DNA from: Cohnella panacarvi Gsoil 349
GTDB taxonomy: Bacteria > Bacillota > Bacilli > Paenibacillales > Paenibacillaceae
Direction: 5' to 3'
Assembly: GCF_000515335.1 (NCBI RefSeq)
Contig: NZ_KI911563.1
Coordinates: 2,368,355 to 2,432,354, forward strand
Length of the DNA stretch: 64,000 nucleotides
The notes below the pieces were generated by a model that made no database searches, was not told the DNA's origin, and saw nothing but the letters and a program-made list of their open reading frames with translations. Numbering within the stretch: position 1 is the first letter of the stretch; the number at the start of each line of letters is the position of its first letter. Shown here piece by piece: positions 1,900 to 31,285 of the stretch. A program made the position numbers and the translations under genes.

Positions 1900-1987
1900 A
1901 GGGACTCCATGTCAACTGCTCTGCGCTCGGTTGAACCCAATGTCCTCATTCGGATTCGGGGCACTCCCCTTTCAGCCCACTAAAAAA

Positions 1988-1992
1988 CCCTG
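1988..1992. repeat. target-site duplication CCCTG, left copy
   Basis: This is the 5-bp direct repeat flanking the transposon; the right copy is at 8288-8292. Directly left, AAAAAA (1982-1987) is the displaced U-tract of the ssrA terminator read on the minus strand. Confidence 0.85.
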
Positions 1993-2139
1993 TGTGACTT
2001 CAATGATATGATTGCCAAAAAATCAGCCATATCATTGCCACAAACAGAGCCAAATGTACAGTATTTATTCTTAAATTATACCATTAAAATCAACGATAAT
2101 ATTGCCTAAAGTACATAAATAAATCATCCAGTTGCCAAA
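1993..2139 (+). repeat. transposon left end with TnsB-like 22-bp sites
   Basis: The terminal TGTGA is followed by related 22-mers at 1998-2019, 2021-2042, 2088-2109 and 2118-2139, most sharing an AATCA-like start and a TTGCC(A/T)AA end. The cores are partly palindromic (CAATGATATG at 2001-2010 is inverted at 2028-2037). The last two continue into AGTACA(T/A)A and are spaced 30 bp. This arrangement, a short terminal octamer then clustered 22-mers, is that of Tn7-like ends. Confidence 0.75.
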
Positions 2140-2177
2140 AGTACAAATAAGCTGTACGGTGAAAATATAGAAATATC

Positions 2178-2427
2178 ATGAGCGGAGTCACTTTGCTAAC
2201 GAAAAAAAGATATGGTGGTGGAGAGCTTGTTAGGGTTCCAGTTTATCCCCGGTAAGGAAGACCAATATATTGATAAATTTAAAAAAGTCATTACTGAGGA
2301 CTGGATAAGAAAGCAAACCCGACATATGTACTATAAAAATCAGTTCAAGGAAGCTGGTTCTTATTTTGACCTTTTGCATCCCATTATGGAGTATCACGTG
2401 GATATATGGTCGTCCTTGAGAACCTAA
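2178..2427 (+). pseudogene. possible frameshifted first gene of the transposon, unidentified
   Basis: From ATG 2178 the frame reads MSGVTLLTKKRYGGGELVRV and meets a stop at about 2253. In the next frame a 71-codon open stretch continues as KEDQYIDKFKKVITEDWIRK and ends HPIMEYHVDIWSSLRT. Removing one base near 2252 would join them into one protein of about 83 residues. It starts about 185 bp inside the left end, where the first transposition gene of Tn7 elements usually begins, and its tail overlaps the convergent TniQ-like gene. I do not recognise the family, and coding capacity itself is uncertain. Confidence 0.3.
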
Positions 2428-3005
2428 TCGGGACGGGCACTCTTGCTATTAGTTGCACTTGGTTTAAACCCTTTTTTCTTGGTTCCCATGTGTTCGTAAT
2501 ATCGCTGTATAACCTGGTTATACAGTTCTGGAAAACGAGAAGCTAAGTAACTTCTTGAGCAAGCCGTTTTCTCCATTATCTGCATCATGTGTGGTGGGGG
2601 ATTTTCCAAAAGCGAATCTTGCAGTACACGTTTAACTTTCTCTGCAATAAATCCTCGCTTTTTCTTTTTTTTAAAGTAATAGTTAGCTTCTTGGTTTATT
2701 TTTAAACCTTTCGTCTTATTCATTACTAGAGAATAAATTGTAGTATTTAAAAATGTAGCTAACCAAAGCAAACTTTCCAATTCAGGTTTGCTCTCTCCCT
2801 TTATCCATCCCCAAAGCGCATGCGGTAACCTTCCTGCGGATCTACCGAACTCAGCAACATTATCATTATAGTTCCTCTTTATGAATGCTTCTAACACCTT
2901 CGAAACTGACGATGAGCTATCAATCAGTAAAAGTGACTTTTGATTTACAATTACTCGTTTCAAGGAGTACGTCATTCTTCCCTTCGAGAAATGGTGTTGC
3001 TGCAC
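2424..3005 (-). CDS. TniQ/TnsD-like C-terminal protein (transposon target-selection family), short
   Basis: The 193-residue product contains the repeated helix-turn-helix architecture found in the C-terminal part of Firmicute TnsD/TniQ proteins. A segment like LPHALWGWIKGESKPELESL, followed by LLWLATFLNT, corresponds to the usual 'W-W-NGK-P-SLL-CLN' block. A later one (VKRVLQDSLLENPPPHMMQI, then SRSYLASRFPELYNQVIQRYYEH) matches the 'PPPS-EVARRLGYS-LYRHFPEL' block. TnsD proteins bind a chromosomal attachment site and recruit TnsC/TnsAB. The N-terminal zinc-binding TniQ part of full-length proteins (usually 400 or more aa) is absent, so this is a truncated or dedicated DNA-binding version. The start may be GTG 3005 or ATG 2975. 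The start lies only 20 bp from the divergent JAB gene. Confidence 0.6.
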   Translation of the reverse strand: MQQHHFSKGRMTYSLKRVIVNQKSLLLIDSSSSVSKVLEAFIKRNYNDNVAEFGRSAGRLPHALWGWIKGESKPELESLLWLATFLNTTIYSLVMNKTKGLKINQEANYYFKKKKKRGFIAEKVKRVLQDSLLENPPPHMMQIMEKTACSRSYLASRFPELYNQVIQRYYEHMGTKKKGFKPSATNSKSARPD

Positions 3006-3025
3006 ATTAGGGGGTTAATGCCTGC

Positions 3026-3529
3026 ATGAAGCTTCTCGAAATGACCAAGTCTCTGCACAGACAAGTAAGGGGCGACTTAGGTCGCCCTCACTCTCACGCT
3101 TCGGAACGTGTTGGCTTTGTCTTTTGTTTACTTAAAGGTAGAACCCTACGACTGACATCGTATACATCAGTTCCCGATGAGCTTTATATTAAAGATTCGA
3201 CTGTCGGTGCACGTATCAACCATCAGGCTATTGCGATGGCAATGAAGAAAGCTGATCATGAACGATTAGGAATTCTACATGTCCATGAGCATTGGGGGAC
3301 TGGGATTCCACAGTTCAGTGCAACTGATTTGTCCTCTCACTCTGATTTTTTACGTGCATTCCGGACGGCGAATCCAAATGCTGCTCACGGGTTTTTACTG
3401 CTAAGCAAAGATACTTTAATGGCTCGGGTCTGGCTACCAGGCGAATCAATCCATCGGGATATATTCCGGTGTGATTTCTCCGGAAAACTCTCTCTAGTTA
3501 GATTGCTAAGGAGGATACTGCAGATATGA
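3026..3529 (+). CDS. JAB/MPN-family metallopeptidase
   Basis: The 167-residue protein carries the JAB zinc motif: His85-x-His87 in HVHEHWG, then Ser98 and Asp101 in FSATD, with Glu27 in SERVGFVF as the likely catalytic acid. This is the H-x-H...S-x-x-D signature of isopeptidases that trim ubiquitin-like tails or remove conjugates. It overlaps the downstream E1-like gene by 4 bp, so the two are almost certainly co-translated. The start at 3026 is preceded by AGGGGG (3009-3014); no other in-frame start exists after an upstream stop. No ubiquitin-like protein or E2 gene is adjacent, unlike Bil-type or CBASS-associated systems. Target unknown; cargo location suggests defence or modification. Confidence 0.85.
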   Translation: MKLLEMTKSLHRQVRGDLGRPHSHASERVGFVFCLLKGRTLRLTSYTSVPDELYIKDSTVGARINHQAIAMAMKKADHERLGILHVHEHWGTGIPQFSATDLSSHSDFLRAFRTANPNAAHGFLLLSKDTLMARVWLPGESIHRDIFRCDFSGKLSLVRLLRRILQI

Positions 3530-4311
3530 GCAAAGTAAATAATCGTCAATCATTTCTCGGGGAGAAACTTGACAAAGTTCTAGGAAATTGTCTCGTAGGT
3601 GTAATCGGTCTAGGAGGGGGTGGTTCTCAGGTCGTTCAACAACTTGCTCATATCGGGTTTCGGCGATATGTCCTATGTGACTATGATACGATTGAGGGTA
3701 CAAATCTCAATCGTACGGTAGGAGCGACGTTACTCGATGTGGAGAATGAATCACGTAAGCTGGTTATTGCTGTCCGCATGATCCGCACTCTGCAACCAGA
3801 TGCGGAAATACAAGGAATTCCGAAGCGATTCCAAGAAGCAGCTGAAGACTTGAAGAAATGTGACGTTATATTCGGTTGCCTTGACGGGCTTGGAAATAGA
3901 GATCAGTTGGAGCGTCTCGCTCGTTCTGCGAATATTCCGTATATTGATATCGGAATGGATGTGAACGCAATGATTCCTGGCGAGCCCCCACGTATGTCGG
4001 GGCAGGTAATCGCCAGTCTCACAGGTCACCCCTGTATGAGATGTTACGGCTATATTAACGAAAAAGATTTGGCTAAAGAACACGCCGCATATGGAGACGC
4101 TGGTATTCGACCACAAGTCATTTGGCCAAATGGAGTATTATCTTCAACGGCTATTGGCGTCGCCCTCAATCTTTTGACTAATTGGACAATCCATGTAGAT
4201 AAACAAATCCTGTACTACGAATACGATGGAAACGTCGGAACCGTCAAACCGCACCTTTTCTACGAGCGGGAACTTCAACGTAATACTAGATGCCCGCATT
4301 ATCCAAGTTGA
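3526..4311 (+). CDS. E1-like ThiF-family adenylyltransferase
   Basis: The 261-residue Rossmann-fold protein shows the E1/ThiF/MoeB nucleotide site: glycine loop GLGGGGSQ (28-35), Asp52/Asp54 in CDYDTIEGTNLNR with Asn62-Arg63, Lys78, and Asp120 in FGCLDG. CxxC at 170-173 (HPCMRC) plus Cys256 could hold part of a zinc site. No cysteine occupies the usual E1 catalytic region (about 190-210, RPQVIWPNGVLSST), so it may adenylate without forming the thioester, or use another cysteine. Such enzymes activate the C-terminus of a ubiquitin-like or sulfur-carrier protein. Coupled to the JAB gene by a 4-bp overlap and followed by a strong terminator, so the pair forms a self-contained operon. Confidence 0.88.
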   Translation: MSKVNNRQSFLGEKLDKVLGNCLVGVIGLGGGGSQVVQQLAHIGFRRYVLCDYDTIEGTNLNRTVGATLLDVENESRKLVIAVRMIRTLQPDAEIQGIPKRFQEAAEDLKKCDVIFGCLDGLGNRDQLERLARSANIPYIDIGMDVNAMIPGEPPRMSGQVIASLTGHPCMRCYGYINEKDLAKEHAAYGDAGIRPQVIWPNGVLSSTAIGVALNLLTNWTIHVDKQILYYEYDGNVGTVKPHLFYERELQRNTRCPHYPS

Positions 4312-4328
4312 GTTGATTAATTAATGTG

Positions 4329-4353
4329 GCCCCCTTGTTTTACAAAAGGGGGC
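4329..4353 (+). terminator. terminator of the JAB-E1 operon
   Basis: Arms GCCCCCTT and AAGGGGGC flank a 9-nt loop 18 bp after the E1 stop codon. The AT-rich flank can serve as a terminator in either direction. Confidence 0.8.
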
Positions 4354-4505
4354 TTATACATATTTATCCATAACCATTTCTTTTTTTGAAATCTTAGTTA
4401 CTTTAATCGGGTGAAATTTTCGCCAATAAACAAGGCTCGGCCGTTAGCGCCGACGTTCTCGATAGAAAACGCTTGAGTAATTGTTAGAAGCTATATAGTA
4501 CTCAG

Positions 4506-5480
4506 TTAGTTTCCATTCGATTTAATTTTATCTACTTTATTAGTGGCAGCCTTTATATTAAGTATATTAATGGATGTATTTCCGTATTTTTTTTTTGTGG
4601 CTGAAGCAATTAAGAGTGACTTTATATCCTCCGCTTTAAGATCGGGGGAAATTGACAATATGATTGCCACAGCAGCTGATACCAATGGAGTTGCCGCTGA
4701 TGTACCACTAAACCAGTCCATACCATTCGTCGTAGACCCAGTTGTCAATAAATAACTACCCGGAGCTGCTATATTTCCAGCAGAATAATTTGATCGACTA
4801 TCCACAAACCCGGATTTAGTTAAGGCTGATACTGCAATTACATCCTTATATCGTCCAGGGAAATCATTCTCATTTTCCCCATCATTGCCTGCAGCTGCAA
4901 TTATTATTACACCTGAAGAAATTGCATTCTCAATAGCGATTCTCAATTCGTCTGAATCTGTTTTGGTCGTTAAGCTAATATTAATTATTTTTGCTTTATT
5001 CACGACTGCAAGATTAATAGCTTCTATTAGTCTGTCAATTGAAATACCGCTTTCCGAACCCACATCAATAGATAGTATGTTAGCGTTTGGCAATATTCCA
5101 CGTGGTGTTATCACACCATCACCATTTGCAGTAATTAATCCAGTAACTAAGGTGCCGTGAACAGAAGAAGGAGTATTTTCAAGAGTTATTTGTTTTATGC
5201 AGCTACTACATAAAAACTTATTATTAAGATCTATACCAGAATCTATTACAGCAATTAACGGTATGTTTTTTTGATTTAAACTTATGATATTTCGTCCGTT
5301 TATTAAATCCAGTGGCCAGGTGTAAAGTCCATTTAATTCTTTGTTTAAACCTGTAGATGTATAGACTTCACTAATTATTATTTTCCTGTTACTTATTGTA
5401 TCACTCCCTAATACCAAAGTTGTAACAATACAAATAACTAAAAGGAGAATATATTTAATATGCAAAAATCTGCTCACCAT
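4506..5480 (-). CDS. membrane-anchored or secreted subtilisin-like serine protease (S8)
   Basis: The 324-residue protein starts with a hydrophobic segment (YILLLVICIVTTLVLG) that is a signal or anchor. The S8 triad is clear: Asp80 in IAVIDSGID, His108 in VHGTLVTG and Ser261 in SGTSAATP, with oxyanion Asn199 in AAAGNDG. The prodomain is very short compared with typical subtilases. Start ATG 5480 is chosen because GAGGGG lies 10 nt upstream; the first 26 bp overlap the lipoprotein gene, so they are probably co-translated. It is low in GC like the other cargo. A specific protein substrate is not evident. It may act on the neighbouring exported protein. Confidence 0.85.
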   Translation of the reverse strand: MVSRFLHIKYILLLVICIVTTLVLGSDTISNRKIIISEVYTSTGLNKELNGLYTWPLDLINGRNIISLNQKNIPLIAVIDSGIDLNNKFLCSSCIKQITLENTPSSVHGTLVTGLITANGDGVITPRGILPNANILSIDVGSESGISIDRLIEAINLAVVNKAKIINISLTTKTDSDELRIAIENAISSGVIIIAAAGNDGENENDFPGRYKDVIAVSALTKSGFVDSRSNYSAGNIAAPGSYLLTTGSTTNGMDWFSGTSAATPLVSAAVAIILSISPDLKAEDIKSLLIASATKKKYGNTSINILNIKAATNKVDKIKSNGN

Positions 5481-6036
5481 CTTTATTAATCCCCTCAACA
5501 CCTATAACAATATTACCTTCAGGTTCATCAATTAGAACATAGCTGTACGTGTTCTCTTCTGATTTGGTAACATTAACTATTAAACCAGTGGAGAATTTAA
5601 TAACAATATCTGTTATTTCATCGTCTCGAATGAAACCACTAATAATATGGTACCGACCTTTATTATTTATTAGTCCCGACATCTCTAGTTTTGTAAATGG
5701 GACTGATTTATCTATCTTATTTAAAGTTTGGAACAAAATCTCCTGGTGGTTTCTATCCACAATAACTGAGCCTTCGTAATCATTATCTTGGGTACTAAAT
5801 AAAACGTATGATAAATCGCCGTATGTCGAGTCTTTAGTATATACAAGATTTATTGACTTTAAGTTTTGCTTCAGCTCGTCTTCAAAACTGTTTTTAATTA
5901 GTTGTTTATATTCTTGAAATACTTCTTTAGTATCACTCACTGAGTTCACATGCGTACTACACCCCAAAATTATCTGTGTCCAAAATAGAGCTAATATAGC
6001 CAAAAGTAACTTAGTTAAAACATTCCTCTTGACCAT
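5455..6036 (-). CDS. putative lipoprotein, 193 aa
   Basis: The N-terminus MVKRNVLTKLLLAILALFWT ends in the lipobox ILGC, so the mature protein should be anchored by a lipid-modified cysteine on the outer face of the membrane. The rest is mostly beta-rich with no family I recognise. The ATG at 6036 is preferred over upstream TTG 6045 because AAGGAGG lies 9 nt before it. The gene overlaps the subtilase downstream by 26 bp and follows the exported protein gene after a terminator. It may be an immunity or cofactor protein for the protease; this is inference from order only. Confidence 0.7.
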   Translation of the reverse strand: MVKRNVLTKLLLAILALFWTQIILGCSTHVNSVSDTKEVFQEYKQLIKNSFEDELKQNLKSINLVYTKDSTYGDLSYVLFSTQDNDYEGSVIVDRNHQEILFQTLNKIDKSVPFTKLEMSGLINNKGRYHIISGFIRDDEITDIVIKFSTGLIVNVTKSEENTYSYVLIDEPEGNIVIGVEGINKDGEQIFAY

Positions 6037-6061
6037 CAAAGCCAACCTCCTTCTTTATTAA

Positions 6062-6089
6062 AAGAGGTAGGGAACGTTCCCTACCTCTT
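6062..6089 (-). terminator. terminator between exported protein and lipoprotein genes
   Basis: A perfect palindrome centred on ACGT (arms AAGAGGTAGGGA and TCCCTACCTCTT) is followed on the minus strand by TTAAT. It separates the 6109-7116 gene from the lipoprotein-protease pair and may reduce read-through rather than block it. Confidence 0.8.
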
Positions 6090-6108
6090 AGATTAGACTT
6101 CAAAAAAT

Positions 6109-7116
6109 TTATTTGTAATAAGCAGCTAGTTTGTTGACCTGACCATTCATGTCAGGTAATAATCTAAACATGCAATATTGAGTATATGATTGCCCTGCGT
6201 TAACTGAGAGAGATAAACTTAAAAATGAAAAATTAACTCCACCACTAACTGAACCACTAACAGTCACCGTAAAATAAATTTGCGCTTCAGCATAATGGTT
6301 ATTTGTAACGAAGGTGCCTGTAGCATCATCATATTTTGCAGATAGGCGGTCGTTCTTGGTCGGAGTTCCGTAGGAGACAAACCCCGAAGAACTAGCTCCA
6401 GGAGTGTAGTTCCCTATTATAGAAGTCCAACTTCCGTCATTTTCATCCAAGATAGTTGTATAGTCCAAGTTAAGTATCGCAGCTTTAGCCCAATAAGTTG
6501 CATTGCCGAACGTCCATTGTGCATTTGCATTATTACAAACCCCGGGGCCACCACCTTGGCAGTTTGCACTTGTGTAATAAAGATCTTCATCATAACCACT
6601 TGGTTTTACCATTTTATCGTTTCCAGATTTCGTCCCTGGATCTTGGCTAAATTCAATAAAGCTGCCATCTGGATATTGAATTACATATTTACTTTGTTTA
6701 GGGTAGCGGTCCATGAATTTAGTAATATCTTCCTGTCCACGCGATGTAACAGGAGATCCTAGACCAGCCTTAATCGCTGAAGGATCTCCAGCTAATATTC
6801 TTTTCTTAAACCCCCTCGGATCTGCAGTAATCTCCTCAACTGGCACTGCTTCTACTTTATCTAGATCTAATACTTTCCCACTTTTCTCTAACCCCGCTAC
6901 TAAATCGTCTACAGATGCATAGTACTCAGCATCTTCGTTATTTAAGCCTTTCTCCATAAGGGCTTTAACCTTTTCATTATGTGGAGCATTTTTTTGCTCG
7001 CTTAGAGGCCTTGAAAAAAAATCTTCGCTATTTGCAGCTGAAGTCGGACTTTCAGCAAAAGCCTGCGAAGAAAACACTATTATTAAAACACAAGCTACTA
7101 TTAAGTAACGGTACAT
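6109..7116 (-). CDS. exported protein of unknown function, 335 aa
   Basis: A signal peptide (MYRYLIVACVLIIVFSSQAFAES) with an AFA-type cleavage site marks it as secreted. Residues 30-100 are charged and helical (EKVKALMEKGLNNEDAEYYA), then a middle region with GPGVCNNA and ASSSGFVSYG motifs, and a hydrophobic C-terminal block (NFSFLSLSLSVNAGQSY). I do not recognise the family. The start is ATG 7116 with AGGAGG 7 nt upstream; the preceding TTG is too close to it. It heads the gene set that continues with a lipoprotein and a subtilase; the charged N-terminal region would suit a propeptide removed by that protease, but no processing site is proven. Confidence 0.7.
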   Translation of the reverse strand: MYRYLIVACVLIIVFSSQAFAESPTSAANSEDFFSRPLSEQKNAPHNEKVKALMEKGLNNEDAEYYASVDDLVAGLEKSGKVLDLDKVEAVPVEEITADPRGFKKRILAGDPSAIKAGLGSPVTSRGQEDITKFMDRYPKQSKYVIQYPDGSFIEFSQDPGTKSGNDKMVKPSGYDEDLYYTSANCQGGGPGVCNNANAQWTFGNATYWAKAAILNLDYTTILDENDGSWTSIIGNYTPGASSSGFVSYGTPTKNDRLSAKYDDATGTFVTNNHYAEAQIYFTVTVSGSVSGGVNFSFLSLSLSVNAGQSYTQYCMFRLLPDMNGQVNKLAAYYK

Positions 7117-7375
7117 CAATTAACCTCCTAAGATTTTTAGCTGGCCAGCTCACTTAATAATATCCAGCATTTAACTTAATTAGTCAATATTTACTTTTGC
7201 GCGATTTTTACGTGTTGGAGATGGCTATGTAACTGACTACAATAAGCGTGTTCTTTTATGTAAGACATTTTTGAGCGTGAATAGTTTCATTCTGACACAA
7301 AATTAATAAAATAGACCTAATGTTTCGACAGAAACTCTCAATCAAGATCTGATAAGCACTTAGCAAAAAATAAAA
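7117..7375. other. AT-rich intergenic region, no gene seen
   Basis: This stretch separates the exported-protein gene from the XRE regulator. It should hold the promoter of the former; I see several AT-rich hexamers but no convincing -35/-10 pair. A small palindrome CTGGCCAG lies at 7141-7148. No ORF of note on either strand. Confidence 0.5.
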
Positions 7376-7398
7376 AAAGTGAAGTAATCCTTCACTTT
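7376..7398 (-). terminator. terminator of the XRE regulator gene
   Basis: Arms AAAGTGAAG and CTTCACTTT with a 5-nt loop are followed on the minus strand by a long T-rich tract, 13 bp after the stop codon. Confidence 0.9.
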
Positions 7399-7411
7399 AA
7401 ACTTTATGATA

Positions 7412-7756
7412 TTAACTTTGCTGGCGGTTGTGGTATCGTGACAATTTCATCTCAAGGAACTCCAACATTTCCCTTTTAGCAACTTCTTGTAGGTTTCTGA
7501 AACCTTTCAATAGAATATTTTCTTGCTCGTTTAATTTATCCAGATGCTGAGAATCTATATTCAATAATAGCCAGTTTAGATCTACCCCATAAGTTTTGGC
7601 TAATAATTGAAGAGTCTCACAAGACGGCTTACTCTTTCCGGTTTCTATTTCGCTTAGTGTGGCTTGAGATACTCCAATAATTTCTGCAAATGAAACTTGA
7701 TTTAAGTTATGTTGATTTCGAATCAGTTTAATTTTTAAAGAGATATTACTTTGCAT
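7412..7756 (-). CDS. XRE-family helix-turn-helix regulator
   Basis: The 114-residue protein has an N-terminal Cro/C1-type domain (residues about 7-65: IKLIRNQHNLNQVSFAEIIG, SQATLSEIETGKSKPS, LQLLAKTYGVDLNWLL) and a helical C-terminal tail that probably dimerises. GGGGAG lies 7-8 nt before the ATG. A 33-bp near-perfect palindrome starts 26 bp upstream and is a likely autoregulatory operator. Such single-domain regulators often control mobile-element cargo; here the candidate targets are its own promoter and the protease cassette downstream. Confidence 0.88.
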   Translation of the reverse strand: MQSNISLKIKLIRNQHNLNQVSFAEIIGVSQATLSEIETGKSKPSCETLQLLAKTYGVDLNWLLLNIDSQHLDKLNEQENILLKGFRNLQEVAKREMLEFLEMKLSRYHNRQQS

Positions 7757-7781
7757 GGATTATCTCCCCTATATATGCTAA

Positions 7782-7814
7782 ATGCACATTTTTGTCAGTG
7801 ACAAAAACGTGCAT
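7782..7814 (-). promoter_or_regulatory. 33-bp palindrome between cargo tmRNA and XRE gene
   Basis: Arms ATGCACATTTTTGTC (7782-7796) and GACAAAAACGTGCAT (7800-7814) match except for one position, around a 3-bp centre. It lies 13 bp downstream of the element-borne tmRNA 3' end and upstream of the XRE start, where TATATA near 7771-7776 could be the -10. It may be the XRE operator, the tmRNA terminator, or both. Confidence 0.6.
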
Positions 7815-7826
7815 AGATAGTATGTA

Positions 7827-8191
7827 TGGTGGAGCCGAGGGGAGTTGAACCCCTGTCCGAAAGTAACGCCACATTGCTTTCTACGGGTGTAGTCCCAGAT
7901 TTGATGTCACCCGAGAGACGCCCCGGAACCGGCTTCTCGTTGGGTCAGCCTGATTGTCTTCTTCAGCTAGCCCCAGGCGGAGACTAGACAGCGTATCCCA
8001 CTAAAGTTGAGCCTCTATCCCGCCACATGGGCGATGGAGAGTAGAAGCCTGGTAGCCGTTTCTTAGGCGGCGTAAGCCAGAGTTGGTTGTTGTTTGCCGT
8101 TTAATAGGCTTTCCGCGTTGTTATAGTAGCCGCAGCCCTACTACCCGCTTACAAAGTTCGTACTACTCCCGTCGAATCCAAAAACGGCCCC
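7827..8191 (-). ncRNA. ssrA: tmRNA, second complete copy inside the transposon
   Basis: The 365-nt gene has the same length as the native copy and differs by about 22 substitutions with no indels. The acceptor stem GGGGCCG (5') pairs with CGGCTCC before ACCA. The native gene has GGGGCTG/CAGCTCC, so the two copies differ by a compensated base pair. The tag ORF (8063-8098) encodes GKQQPTLAYAA and a TAA stop, identical to the native tag. The TTCGA T-loop-like 5' motif and 3' CCA are present. It should therefore be charged with alanine and rescue stalled ribosomes with SmpB. It lies just inside the right transposon end, so it is cargo. Promoter and terminator are less clear than for the native gene. 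Confidence 0.9.
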
Positions 8192-8212
8192 ATGATAAAA
8201 ATTAATTCAAAA

Positions 8213-8287
8213 AATCAAGCATATCCTTGCCAAACCGAGAATCAAGCATAAGGCTGCCAAAGCGGCAATATTATGGTTGATTCCACA
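8213..8287 (-). repeat. transposon right end with TnsB-like sites
   Basis: Two 22-bp repeats (8213-8234, 8240-8261) share AATCAAGCATA and GCCAAA, with period 27, and match the left-end site 2021-2042. The terminal 24 bp (8264-8287), read on the minus strand, starts TGTGGAATCAACCATAATAT and resembles the left-end site at 2088-2109 (AATCAACGATAATATTGCC). The repeat cores are semi-palindromic, so site orientation is ambiguous. Confidence 0.75.
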
Positions 8288-8309
8288 CCCTGACCTCATG
8301 CGGTCAGGG
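8288..8309 (-). terminator. native ssrA terminator stem, U-tract displaced by insertion
   Basis: CCCTGACC and GGTCAGGG form an 8-bp stem with a 6-nt loop 6 bp after the ssrA 3' end. Its first five bases are the right copy of the CCCTG target duplication. The T6 tract that should follow now lies at 1982-1987, beyond the transposon, so termination of native ssrA is probably altered. Confidence 0.85.
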
Positions 8310-8315
8310 TTCTTA

Positions 8316-8680
8316 TGGTGGAGCTGAGGGGAGTTGAACCCCTGTCCGAAGACAACGCCACACGGCTTTCTACGGGTGTAGTCCCAGATTTGATGTCACC
8401 CGAGAGACGCCCCGGAACCGGCTTCTCGTTGGGTCAGCCTGATTGTCTTCTTCCGCTAGCCCCAGGCGGAGACTAGACAGCGTATCCCACTAAAGTTGAG
8501 CCCTTAGCCCGCCACATGGGCGATGGAGAGTAAGAGCCTGGTAGCCGTTTCTTAGGCGGCGTAAGCCAGAGTTGGTTGTTGTTTGCCGTTTAATAGGCTT
8601 TCCGCGTTGTTAAAGCAGCCGCAGCCCTACTACCCGCTTACCATGCTCGATCTATCCCCGTCGAATCCAAAAACAGCCCC
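8316..8680 (-). ncRNA. ssrA: tmRNA, native copy
   Basis: The 365-nt tmRNA has acceptor stem GGGGCTG/CAGCTCC followed by ACCA, the GGATTCGA 5' T-arm-like motif, and a tag reading frame (8552-8587) encoding GKQQPTLAYAA then TAA. With the added alanine the tag ends in the usual hydrophobic AA degron. It rescues ribosomes stalled on truncated mRNAs together with SmpB, whose gene lies just upstream, the conserved order. A 22-bp-site-containing transposon is inserted 28 bp downstream. Confidence 0.97.
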
Positions 8681-24456: not shown

Positions 24457-25313
24457 CCTTTCACCGCTCCCACGGTAACGCCTTGCAGGAAATATTTCTG
24501 AAGGCTGAAGAACAAGATGAACATCGGCAACGCCGCGACCGTCGCCCCCGCCATCATCGGCGAGAAATACGTCGTGCTATTGAATCGGAAATTTTTCAGC
24601 CCGAGCTGGATCGTCTGCATATCCATCGAATTGGTGACGAGGAGCGGCCAGAAGAACGTGTTCCAGCTGTCCATGAACGTCAGGATGGCCATAACGGCCA
24701 GCACCGTCTTCGACAACGGCATGATGATGCGGAAGAAAATTCGGAATTGGTTGCAGCCTTCAACCTTGGCGCTTTCGATAATCTCCGTCGGGATGCTCGA
24801 CATGAACTGCTTCGCCAAGAACACGTTGAACACCGTGACGAGTCCCGGCATGATCATCGCCGTGTACGTATTCTCCATCTCGAACGTATTCACGACGAGG
24901 ATGTAGAGCGGCACCTGAGTCACTTGGTACGGGATCATCATCGCGCAGAGCAGGATCGCGAACAGGACGTTGCGCCCTCTGAAACGGATTTTGGAGAAGG
25001 CGTACCCCGCCATGCCGGCGAACACCACGTTCGACACCATGACGCAAGCGGCGACGATAAGCGAGTTCCAGATCCATCTCAGCGAATACTCGCTGTAGTC
25101 GAAGAAAAATTTATAGGAATCCAGCGTGAATTTGCCCGGCCATAACGTGTAGTTCATTGCGCCTGCTTCGACCGCGTCGCCGAACGACGAGATGACCATG
25201 AAGTAGATCGGGAACAGCGTCGCCAAAGCGAACAGAAGCAAGACGAAGACGATCGCGCCGTCCCGGGCCCTTCGAACCAACGGGTTCGCGTGCGTTTTTT
25301 TGTATAAAGCCAT
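24453..25313 (-). CDS. sugar ABC transporter permease, MalG type
   Basis: The 286-residue inner-membrane protein has six predicted helices and the permease signature EAA-like loop IESAKVEGCNQFRIFFRIIMPLSK (about 189-212) that contacts the ATPase. The N-terminus is basic and cytoplasmic. It pairs with the MalF-type permease and lipoprotein upstream. No ATP-binding subunit is encoded nearby, typical for Firmicute CUT1 systems that share a common MsmK-like ATPase. From context it imports MurNAc-containing sugars; substrate not proven. Confidence 0.93.
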   Translation of the reverse strand: MALYKKTHANPLVRRARDGAIVFVLLLFALATLFPIYFMVISSFGDAVEAGAMNYTLWPGKFTLDSYKFFFDYSEYSLRWIWNSLIVAACVMVSNVVFAGMAGYAFSKIRFRGRNVLFAILLCAMMIPYQVTQVPLYILVVNTFEMENTYTAMIMPGLVTVFNVFLAKQFMSSIPTEIIESAKVEGCNQFRIFFRIIMPLSKTVLAVMAILTFMDSWNTFFWPLLVTNSMDMQTIQLGLKNFRFNSTTYFSPMMAGATVAALPMFILFFSLQKYFLQGVTVGAVKG

Positions 25314-25330
25314 ATGGCGTTCCTGCCTCC

Positions 25331-26239
25331 CTAGTACTCCACGTCTTTACCGAACGCTTTGAACTGTATAAGCGCGATGGTTGCGATAATCACCGTCAGA
25401 ATGAGCGATTGAGCCGCCGCCTCGCCGAACTCGAAATACTTGAACGCATTGTTGAAAATAAGCAGCCCGACCATCGTCGTCGCGTTGTCCGGTCCGCCGC
25501 CCGTCATGAGGAACGCGTTCTGGAACACTTGGAAGGAACCGATTACGCCCGTGACGAGCAGGAAGAGCGTCGTCGGCTTCAGGAACGGGAGAACGATGTA
25601 ACGAAGCTTCTGCAGGAAGTTCGCGCCGTCCAGCTCAGCGGCTTCATAATAGCTGTCGTCGATGCCGAGCAGCGCCGCCAAGTAGATGATGATGCTTGTG
25701 CCGTGGCTGGATAGCCAAGACATCAGCACGAGCGAGAACATCGACGTATCGCTCGTACCCAGCCAGTTCTGGTTATGGATTCCGAAGAAGCCGATCAGTT
25801 GGTTCAGAATGCCCTCCGGCAACGGATCGTATATCCATAGCCAGACGACGGACATCGTAACGCCGCTCGCCACGGCCGGCAAATAATAGACGGCCTTGAA
25901 CGTCGTCTGCAGCCGTTTCCTGAGCGGAAGGATCAAGATCGCGATCACGAAAGAGATCAACAGGTTGACGGGAACCGTCAGAACCGTATATTTGATCGTA
26001 TTGCGGATCGACTTCCAAAAGAGATCATCGCGGAGCGTTTCCGCGTAATTGTCTAAGCCGATATAAGTGGAGCCGAGCGGTTTGTATTCCTGGAAGCTGA
26101 TCAGGAAAGCGCTTACGACGGGATACGCCGTGAACAGCGCGTATACGACGAGAGCCACGGCGATAAACGCGTAGGCCCATGCCCAATCGCCGTCTTTGAT
26201 CATTCGTTTCTTGTATGTCTTCGTTGCCGGTTGAGCCAT
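25331..26239 (-). CDS. sugar ABC transporter permease, MalF type
   Basis: The 302-residue inner-membrane protein has six predicted helices, starting WAYAFIAVALVVYALFTAYP, and the EAA loop YYEAAELDGANFLQKLRYIVLP. ATG 26239 is chosen with AAGGGG 10 nt upstream; an in-frame TTG at 26269 lacks a ribosome site. It follows the binding-protein gene after a perfect hairpin and precedes the MalG-type permease by 17 bp. Confidence 0.92.
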   Translation of the reverse strand: MAQPATKTYKKRMIKDGDWAWAYAFIAVALVVYALFTAYPVVSAFLISFQEYKPLGSTYIGLDNYAETLRDDLFWKSIRNTIKYTVLTVPVNLLISFVIAILILPLRKRLQTTFKAVYYLPAVASGVTMSVVWLWIYDPLPEGILNQLIGFFGIHNQNWLGTSDTSMFSLVLMSWLSSHGTSIIIYLAALLGIDDSYYEAAELDGANFLQKLRYIVLPFLKPTTLFLLVTGVIGSFQVFQNAFLMTGGGPDNATTMVGLLIFNNAFKYFEFGEAAAQSLILTVIIATIALIQFKAFGKDVEY

Positions 26240-29941: not shown

Positions 29942-31285
29942 TCATTCCTTAGGCGCCGCGATTCTCTCGTACAAGTAATCGACGACGTGTTTCGCTTCCA
30001 TCCGTCCCTTCGCCCCGTGCTTCTCGATGCCCAGCTTCATCTGGAGCAGGCAACCGGGGTTGCTCGTCAGCATGTAGCGGGCATTCGTCTCGTTCGCATG
30101 TTCCATCTTGTGCCGCAAAATTTGTCCGGCCATCTCCGGCTGCGTGACGTTATAGATGCCCGCCGATCCGCAGCAGCGGTCCGATTCTTTCATCTCGCAG
30201 TAATGCGCTCCGCTCACTTGCCTCATAAGCCGTCTTGGCGCATCGGAACTTTTCATGACATTGCGCAGATGGCACGAGTCCTGGTAGGTGATCGTCACCG
30301 GCTCGGCGGCTTCGGCTTCCGCGAACGCCGGCAATCTGCCGCGTTCGACGATCAGATTCGCGACGTCCACCGTACGGGATGCCAACCATTCTCCAAGCTC
30401 GGCATATTCCCGATCGTCGTGAAGAAGATGATCGTACTCGACGAGGAACGCCCCGCAGCCGCCCGCGTTGGATACGACGTAATCGACGTCTGCCGAGCGG
30501 AAAGTCTTCGCGTTGGCGCGAGCCAGCTCGCGGGCTTGCTCCATCTCTCCGCTATGCGCGTGCAACGCGCCGCAGCACGTCTGACTCGGAGGAATAACGA
30601 CCTCGAATCCCGCTTCGGACAGCAGCTTGACCGTGTTGACGTTCGTCTCCGCGAACAGGACGTCCATCAAGCAGCCCCTGAACAGCGCGACGCGGGCGAT
30701 CTTCTCGCCTTTGGCCGGGTATACTTCTCCGATCCTCTCCAATACGCCTCTTCCGGTAGCGTCCGGCAATACGTTCTCCATCTCCCGCATGTGCTCAGGG
30801 AACAACTTCATCGCTCCGCTTCGTCTCGCGAGCGCGCGCAAACCGGATTTCCGGTAGAACGCTAGCAAACTGCCTGCCCGCTTCAGGCGGTTGCGATGCG
30901 GAAGTATGCTCTTGAAGAACAGCCTGCGTACGCCGGTCATCAGCGGTCCGCGCTCGGCGTGATCCTCGATCGCGTCGCGCGCTTGCTCGATCAACTGGCC
31001 GTATTTCACGTCAGCGGGACAAGCCGGTTCGCACGCGCGGCAGCCCAAGCAGTGGTCCATCTGGTCGCGGAACGATCCGTCAGGTTCCATTAATCCGTCC
31101 GTTACCGCCTTCATGAGCGCGATCCGTCCGCGAGGAGACTCTTGTTCGAGACCGGTCTCCCGGAAAGTCGGACAAGCGGGCAGGCAGAAGCCGCAGCGCA
31201 TGCAGTTCGTCAACTGATCGTAGTCCAGCTTGGCGATCAGCGACTTCTTCAGCGGATTGCCGAGTTCTTCGGTTGTCTTAGCCAC
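29942..31285 (-). CDS. glcF: glycolate oxidase iron-sulfur subunit
   Basis: The 447-residue protein has two 4Fe-4S motifs, CMRCGFCLPACP (about 28-39) and CLGCRACEPACP (about 79-90), and two CCG domains (SQTCCGALHAHSG, ESDRCCGSAGIYN). It accepts electrons from the FAD subunit GlcD and passes them to the quinone pool at the membrane. The GTG start overlaps the glcD end by 8 bp. Substrate could be glycolate, or D-lactate, which MurQ in the adjacent cluster releases. Confidence 0.92.
   Translation of the reverse strand: MAKTTEELGNPLKKSLIAKLDYDQLTNCMRCGFCLPACPTFRETGLEQESPRGRIALMKAVTDGLMEPDGSFRDQMDHCLGCRACEPACPADVKYGQLIEQARDAIEDHAERGPLMTGVRRLFFKSILPHRNRLKRAGSLLAFYRKSGLRALARRSGAMKLFPEHMREMENVLPDATGRGVLERIGEVYPAKGEKIARVALFRGCLMDVLFAETNVNTVKLLSEAGFEVVIPPSQTCCGALHAHSGEMEQARELARANAKTFRSADVDYVVSNAGGCGAFLVEYDHLLHDDREYAELGEWLASRTVDVANLIVERGRLPAFAEAEAAEPVTITYQDSCHLRNVMKSSDAPRRLMRQVSGAHYCEMKESDRCCGSAGIYNVTQPEMAGQILRHKMEHANETNARYMLTSNPGCLLQMKLGIEKHGAKGRMEAKHVVDYLYERIAAPKE

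Follow-up and report, generated by a model that had tools for sequence, protein, structure and literature searches.

Why should a mobile element that settles just behind the transfer-messenger RNA (tmRNA) gene of its host, ssrA, bring a complete ssrA gene of its own? The question is raised by a 64,000-nt stretch of the genome of Cohnella panacarvi Gsoil 349 (NCBI RefSeq GCF_000515335.1, contig NZ_KI911563.1, positions 2,368,355 to 2,432,354 of the forward strand; hereafter the window), in which an insertion at 1993-8287 separates the hairpin of the ssrA terminator from its U-tract and holds a second tmRNA gene, here called ssrA'. We conclude that this 6.3-kb insertion is what deletions have left stranded of a Tn7-like transposon that homes to ssrA. 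Our leading explanation, for and against which we find ourselves evenly divided, is that the parent elements, which have a fused TnsAB transposase, carry ssrA' in a way that preserves tmRNA supply and termination at the locus they invade, the window copy being a deletion derivative of such an element.

The insertion and its surroundings contain the following features:

1982-1987, minus strand: T6 belonging to the host ssrA terminator, now displaced beyond the distal end of the element
1988-1992, no strand: target-site duplication CCCTG, left copy
1993-2137, plus strand: left end, with four TnsB-like sites by matrix scan (1998-2017, 2021-2040, 2088-2107 and 2118-2137) whose spacing relatives share
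7783-7813, minus strand: hairpin behind ssrA', found by folding and positioned as in the relatives G155, G050 and TIAN; its U-tract is weak in the window
7827-8191, minus strand: ssrA', a complete second tmRNA gene with tag GKQQPTLAYAA and acceptor GGGGCCG/CGGCTCC plus CCA (ARAGORN; RF00023, 180.1 bits)
8192-8287, minus strand: right end, 96 bp, with three TnsB-like sites by matrix scan (8263-8282 minus, 8240-8259 plus, 8213-8232 plus)
8288-8292, no strand: target-site duplication CCCTG, right copy
8288-8309, minus strand: hairpin of the host ssrA terminator, severed from T6 by the insertion
8316-8680, minus strand: host ssrA, the tmRNA gene that serves as attachment site (ARAGORN; RF00023, 181.0 bits)

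The two ends, TGTGACTTCAATGATATGATTGCC (from 1993 inward) and TGTGGAATCAACCATAATATTGCC (from 8287 inward), agree at 17 of 24 positions, better than any other TGTG/CACA pair of the window with identical 5-bp flanks and a spacing of 0.5-45 kb; there are three such pairs, and the other two score 14/24 each. Inside the right end the inner two TnsB-like sites are inverted relative to the outermost, and the site at 2118-2137 of the left end is weak (12.3 bits in the matrix scan). The GC content of the element is 38.9%, that of the remaining window 56.7%. Joining the flanks gives CCCTGACC-GCATGA-GGTCAGGG-T6, with the stem beginning 6 nt past the CCA end of ssrA, and this 54-nt joint folds at -27.4 kcal/mol into a stem followed by T6. 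An earlier interpretation made from the letters of this DNA (the sequence-only reading) had proposed imperfect 24-bp TGTG inverted repeats at these positions, TnsB-like sites within them, a CCCTG duplication outside them and a terminator rebuilt by joining the flanks 6 nt past ssrA, and all of these were borne out; it overlooked the second tmRNA gene at 7827-8191 and the absence of tnsABC.

ssrA' is intact and structurally constrained. It lies in tandem with host ssrA on the minus strand, the 96-bp right end standing between it and the host side, and its covariance match covers 374/374 positions of RF00023. Its tag is the same as that of host ssrA, and its acceptor sequence gives the tRNA-like domain a G3-U70 pair, which has a role in alanine charging. 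The two genes are 93.9% identical and keep the same number of pairs of the Rfam model, 72/94; six pairs are altered on both sides yet still paired, a count that is confined to reliably aligned helices and omits six pairs that differ within the helix spanning model positions 204-235, where the two rows are aligned differently. One pair (38/327) is disrupted in ssrA'. The genome of the window holds no further full tmRNA, with two matches above cut-off in all. In the four elements folded, the hairpin 3' of ssrA' has an energy of -20 to -25 kcal/mol. A match to the permuted tmRNA model RF04321 at 8063-8377 was rejected as a by-product of the tandem, joining the 3' half of host ssrA to the 5' half of ssrA'; tandem tmRNA genes can thus mimic a permuted tmRNA. 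Also discarded were 50 viral contigs from IMG/VR that match the tandem pattern (L099-L148) and are not tandems, ARAGORN calling a permuted tmRNA in 48/50 and none in L122 and L145.

Our searches cover ssrA-linked elements that have ssrA' or TnsAB. Tandem ssrA genes were found in 4/394 genomes of the family and 6/392 of the order, two sets that are mostly shared and have four of these genomes in common, and at three loci in a collection of 84,980 species, which may leave out records very near the window; all three counts are lower bounds, as the search demanded exact consensus letters and a gap of 105-135 nt from one gene to the other (112-142 nt for the 394-genome scan). The three loci belong to Paenibacillus tianmuensis, P. 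taihuensis and P. mellifer, presumably our genomes G394/G430 (together TIAN), G323 and G050, respectively.

Complete elements of about 32.8 kb, each on one contig, stand at ssrA in G155 and G050, flanked by perfect target-site duplications (GAGGT and AGCTT); relatives with tnsABC and the same end spacing as the window copy are thereby at hand. From host ssrA outward, both run right end, ssrA', hairpin, an Xre regulator gene, cargo, tniQ1, fused tnsAB, tnsC, tniQ2 and left end. The TIAN and G323 elements are split over two contigs each, and their ends were paired by duplication and end sequence. TnsAB is present in G155, G050, G323 and TIAN, and also in G443, where an in-frame stop interrupts it. 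Among the G155 proteins, Pfam returned Mu-transpos_C, TniB and TniQ above cut-off, with rve and both TnsA domains under it (TnsA N-terminal 26.4 versus 26.5 bits); TnsC matched PF05621 at 45.5 bits and PF13401 at 56.2 bits, and two complete TniQ proteins matched PF06527 at 67.0 and 42.3 bits (cut-off 27). TnsAB scored 820 bits against PDB 9bw1, and TniQ1 and TniQ2 scored 209 and 147 bits against the TnsD of 8v32. We take 9bw1 ("Integrase") and 8v32 (TnsD) to be proteins of a type I-B2 CRISPR-associated transposon (CAST). The matches listed for the cargo of G050 (L040, L048) include the cyclase, E1-E2, JAB and HNH-SAVED proteins of CBASS (cyclic-oligonucleotide-based antiphage signalling system), Wadjet JetB/C/D and QatA/C/D; those for G155 (L039, L046) include Avs2, an Avs1b-like protein, and GajA and GajB of Gabija. 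No cas genes are evident among the PADLOC matches listed for 10 G050 cargo and 8 G155 proteins; arrays were not searched.

What do these elements recognise? In 7/7 ssrA insertions (window, G155, G050, TIAN, G323, G443 and G485) the right end is ssrA-proximal and lies 28 or 29 nt from the last CCA base of ssrA: a single attachment site, one orientation and a fixed distance. Target-site duplications and terminator sequences vary among the hosts. Joining the flanks rebuilds a terminator in four of the five elements compared (the window copy as above; G155, -40.1 kcal/mol; TIAN, -24.1; G323, -18.0), the flanks of TIAN and G323 being joined across contigs and the left flank of G323 being an older remnant rather than plain host DNA; the 54-nt joint of G050 shows no terminator fold (-7.8 kcal/mol), and a longer stem is readable there by eye. 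In G443 and G485 the insertion lies just past a complete host terminator. Because the distance is constant whatever the terminator looks like, the 3' end of ssrA, not the terminator, is what sets the insertion position; the terminator is struck since it sits 28-29 nt from the end of the gene, as for Tn7 and the glmS terminator. The link to ssrA drawn by the sequence-only reading stands, and its choice of the terminator as the target does not. No near-relative uninterrupted empty site was found among nine insertion-free host loci compared, none being a close enough match; G058 (L087), a host with an identical ssrA, has a differing sequence behind the gene and provides no exact empty site.

Insertion at ssrA has probably happened repeatedly, because G323 (L071-L072, G323:C18) retains, immediately beyond the left end and duplication of the newer element, a decayed partial right end joined to a truncated ssrA' (at about 25205-25420 in reversed joined coordinates), and because G443 (L155-L156) has two left-end arrays 4.1 kb apart, at 31028 and 35118 of the joined stretch.

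The ends tie the window copy to these elements independently of place. The TnsB-site matrix was seeded from the ends of the window copy, G155, G323 and TIAN, and the scores of the window ends are thus inflated; spacing was not an input, and the ends of G443 and G485 were outside the seeds in the scans that first found their sites. The spacing of the right-end sites, 0/+23 inverted/+50 inverted, is identical in all six ssrA' carriers and G485, and that of the left-end sites, 0/23/88-90/118-120, is common to the window copy, G155, G050, TIAN, G323 and the farther G443 array. Because this spacing matches, besides the place, we assign the window copy to a family of ssrA-linked Tn7-like elements. 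Its ends follow the TGT..ACA pattern with TnsB-site arrays; departures from that pattern are the right ends of G155, G050 and G485, which begin TGA, and the left ends of G155, G050 and G323, which finish ATA. A 5-bp target-site duplication flanks 5/5 elements compared, TIAN and G323 each being paired across two contigs. In G443 the duplication matches at 5/5 bases with the farther left end and at 4/5 with the nearer, and in G485 the left end was not found.

The machinery of transposition is gone from the window copy. No TnsA or TnsB transposase and no TnsC AAA+ regulator was found among the eight open reading frames (ORFs) of the copy that were scanned, and a search of its own genome, a single contig, gave neither a match to TnsAB at 1e-60 nor any to TniQ. 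The description as a Tn7-like transposon, the starting point of the sequence-only reading, therefore needs to be narrowed: ends, duplication, a TnsD remnant and complete relatives speak for it, and with no tnsABC the copy is a defective derivative. Two ORFs have counterparts in the relatives:

2424-3005, minus strand: 193-aa remnant of a TnsD/TniQ gene (C-terminal half), lying where the relatives have tniQ2
7412-7756, minus strand: regulator of the Xre/Cro type, with 43-48% identity to the one adjacent to the right end in five relatives

The remnant has 27% identity to the C-terminal half of G155 TniQ2 (E 2e-10) and matches residues 248-393 of the TnsD in PDB 8v32 (E 2e-4), the TniQ domain itself being lost; against the TniQs of G323 and G092 it gave no match at 1e-3.

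The transposases of the six ssrA-homing elements that have one form a single clade (support 100/99.7), with four elements inserted elsewhere falling outside it. TniQ1 identity is 36-57% among ssrA-homing elements and 24-33% to G289, G092 and G466, and the gap is smaller for TnsAB over the same sets, 46-70% versus 41-44% (all ranges exclude the near-identical pair G155/G050). Because the identity of TniQ1 tracks ssrA homing more sharply than that of TnsAB, TniQ1 is the likelier reader of ssrA. TniQ2 is only 21-28% identical among G155, G050, G323 and TIAN, save for 86.6% between G155 and G050, a pair that shares 98-99% identity in the rest of its core proteins; TniQ2 probably serves a different target.

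The relatives at 41-44% TnsAB identity are inserted elsewhere than ssrA. G289, G092 and G466 (L073-L076, L173-L175) have their fused-TnsAB elements beside a comEC-like gene, comEC being the name we presume for it; their right ends and attachment gene were not found. Around the TnsAB of these three and of G508, no tmRNA lies in the surrounding stretch of 40-60 kb, and no right ends were found. None of 6 plasmid-borne loci examined (of 45 matching records) holds a tRNA copy, and phage records gave no TnsAB match.

How ssrA' came to be where it is can be followed in part. In G155 and G050 it is 98.6% identical; because the host ssrA genes of these two fall in different clades, ssrA' travels with the element. 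The ssrA' of the window groups as sister with the ssrA of its own host (support 100/99). In the window and G443, most differences between inner and outer copies (14/22 and 20/30) fall at the ends of the gene, a bias reached by 0/82 and 0/166 reference pairs of similar identity, respectively; it is weak or absent in G155 (43/356 reference pairs), G050 (77/742) and TIAN (20/607). Tandem copies probably swap their middles by gene conversion. A single clade of ssrA' carriers was not rejected (p 0.208); carriage may have been gained once and then lost, or gained twice. The inner acceptor is GGGGCCG in the first five inner copies; among 50 reference rows (30 search-returned loci and 20 chosen ones, with L094, the host gene of G323, excluded from pair counts), 46 have GGGGGCG/CGCCTCC and 4 have GGGGCCG. 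A role of GGGGCCG as a universal mark of "self" was dropped, the inner copy of G443 being GGGGGCG. In G246 (L098), a host ssrA with an ordinary terminator has gene ends of the element type; it may be a donor lineage or a converted host gene.

Starting from place, distance, ends, duplications, gene content, an intact and constrained ssrA' and a single ssrA-homing TnsAB clade, we infer a reading of ssrA by TniQ1, read-through into the element and a purpose for ssrA'. TniQ1, a TnsD-type protein, would most likely recognise the tRNA-like 3' end of ssrA and direct insertion 28-29 nt downstream with the right end toward the gene. Such an insertion often parts the stem of the host terminator from its U-tract, and read-through from host ssrA would then enter the right end; given the hairpin behind ssrA', it would cross the right end and stop behind ssrA'. 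By this means ssrA' and its own terminator may restore a full tmRNA-terminator unit at the invaded locus.

Several observations weigh against this explanation. Six of the seven elements were located via the tandem-ssrA search, which biases upward the share that carry ssrA' (6/7); in a less biased sample, the ten genomes of the 392-genome order set with TnsAB at 1e-100, five elements are at ssrA with ssrA' (G155, G050, G323, G430 and G443; that of G323 is truncated by the contig end), one is at ssrA without it (G485) and four are elsewhere. The G485 element sits 28 nt from ssrA and lacks ssrA', which is thus not required for homing. G443 carries ssrA' all the same with the host terminator intact upstream; elements that split the terminator, four or five in number, all carry ssrA' in this biased sample, and of those that spare it G443 does and G485 does not. 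A promoter of its own in the right end is not supported for ssrA' in 4/6 elements (window 132, G323 99, TIAN 389 and G443 429 of 500 shuffles), promoter-like scores being clearly above shuffles just in G155 and G050 (11 and 13 of 500). One simple lineage of ssrA' was rejected as well, a single clade failing for the gene middle (p 0.0001) and, more weakly, for the ends (p 0.022).

The most serious competitor holds that ssrA' is a passenger, a host ssrA captured at the right end by imprecise transposition and homogenised by conversion with the host gene, of no service to the element. The sister relationship of the window copies, the end bias in the window and G443, just as conversion of middles would leave it, and the ability of G485 to manage without ssrA' all agree with this account; compensatory changes and intact tags, which give ssrA' a functional look, do not, nor does the near-identity of ssrA' in G155 and G050 despite hosts whose ssrA genes fall in different clades. 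The slot that ssrA' occupies is also constant, between the right-end sites and the hairpin-Xre unit in the five elements with a complete right end; in G485 the right-end sites lead straight into hairpin and Xre gene, so that ssrA' fills a slot between them. We consider the passenger account unlikely, if well worth keeping in view. Improbable, in our judgement, is that ssrA' is a target mimic, with TniQ1 bound at its 3' end so as to titrate TnsD or block a second insertion and Xre acting as a switch. The close resemblance of the ssrA' 3' end to that of the presumed target and the conserved Xre gene beside it would fit, and Xre proteins control transposition in I-F3 CASTs as described in PMC11406308; a short binding site would suffice for such a role, however, making a whole tmRNA superfluous, G485 keeps Xre without ssrA', and insertions recurred at the same place in G323 and probably in G443.

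Two further proposals fare much worse. Recognition of the terminator sequence itself would explain why the window copy and those of G155, TIAN and G323 lie within the hairpin or between stem and U-tract, but the differing duplications and terminators of the hosts, the insertions of G443 and G485 past an intact terminator and a distance that is 28-29 nt even so make it very improbable. We give still less credit to an integrase-type island with a restored gene copy, or to a plain tandem duplication of ssrA: two tandem tmRNA genes are indeed present, and ssrA is often used by integrases in the sources as far as they were available, yet neither process accounts for 5-bp duplications, paired ends, TnsB-site arrays and the TnsAB, TnsC and TniQ of the relatives, and both tmRNA copies are whole, with host ssrA unsplit.

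Besides a 71-aa ORF at 2212-2427, close to the left end, that has no Pfam or PADLOC match, the remaining ORFs of the window copy are cargo, the weak JAB-like protein being a partner of the ThiF/E1-like one:

3026-3529, plus strand: JAB-like protein (Pfam match under cut-off, E 0.016)
3526-4311, plus strand: ThiF/E1-like protein
4506-5501, minus strand: subtilase S8 peptidase
5455-6045, minus strand: unknown protein with a lipoprotein-like start, judged by eye
6109-7119, minus strand: unknown protein with a signal-peptide-like start, judged by eye

How does the family compare with known systems? Tn7 sets its right end near its target gene, as the ssrA family does, and a 1986 study reportedly names the glmS terminator in its title as the Tn7 insertion point; to our knowledge, Tn7 carries no glmS copy, and no further Tn7-like element with a complete copy of its target gene is known to us. 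The ssrA family differs from Tn7 in its fused TnsA and TnsB and its RNA-gene target. Both home at a fixed distance behind a conserved gene and insert in its terminator, and TnsD of Tn7 measures its distance from glmS, according to PMC2918618. By its proteins, the family belongs to the fused-TnsAB branch of Tn7-like elements, whose marks, according to PMC11406308, are fused TnsAB and TnsDs that use tRNA genes; the type I-D CAST CyCAST homes 30-33 nt behind tRNA-Leu, as given in PMC10293859. With the I-B2/I-D CASTs of this branch the ssrA family shares the TnsAB fusion, TnsC, TnsD-type TniQs and fixed-distance homing behind a small RNA gene, and it differs from them in attaching at ssrA, at 28-29 nt, in having two TnsD-sized TniQs, in showing no Cas among the matches listed for the proteins scanned and in the complete copy of the target gene that is present in most of its known members. 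Islands and phages that use ssrA by way of an integrase likewise enter there and leave a functional ssrA, but, in what was available of the literature on them, the gene is split on entry and its displaced portion is then made good, whereas the ssrA family leaves the host gene whole and adds a second. No Tn7-like element with a tmRNA or ssrA target, or with a carried ssrA', is described in the available parts of the literature searched, which did not extend to supplementary tables or to Hsieh and Peters 2022.

With these elements, the gene for tmRNA joins the sites at which TnsD-type selectors attach, and tRNA-reading and tmRNA-reading TnsDs within one branch form a natural pair in which to study the reading of RNA genes by TnsD. 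The site also gathers defence systems, as the cargo of G050 and G155 shows. We tentatively suggest, with rather less than even confidence, that this is an element family that homes to a gene while carrying a working, co-evolving copy of it, a mobile tmRNA that would replace or double the rescue RNA of the host on insertion. The carried ssrA' makes it testable what damage a "safe-site" insertion does when it breaks a terminator, and whether elements repay it; G485, with the same homing and no ssrA', is a ready comparison.

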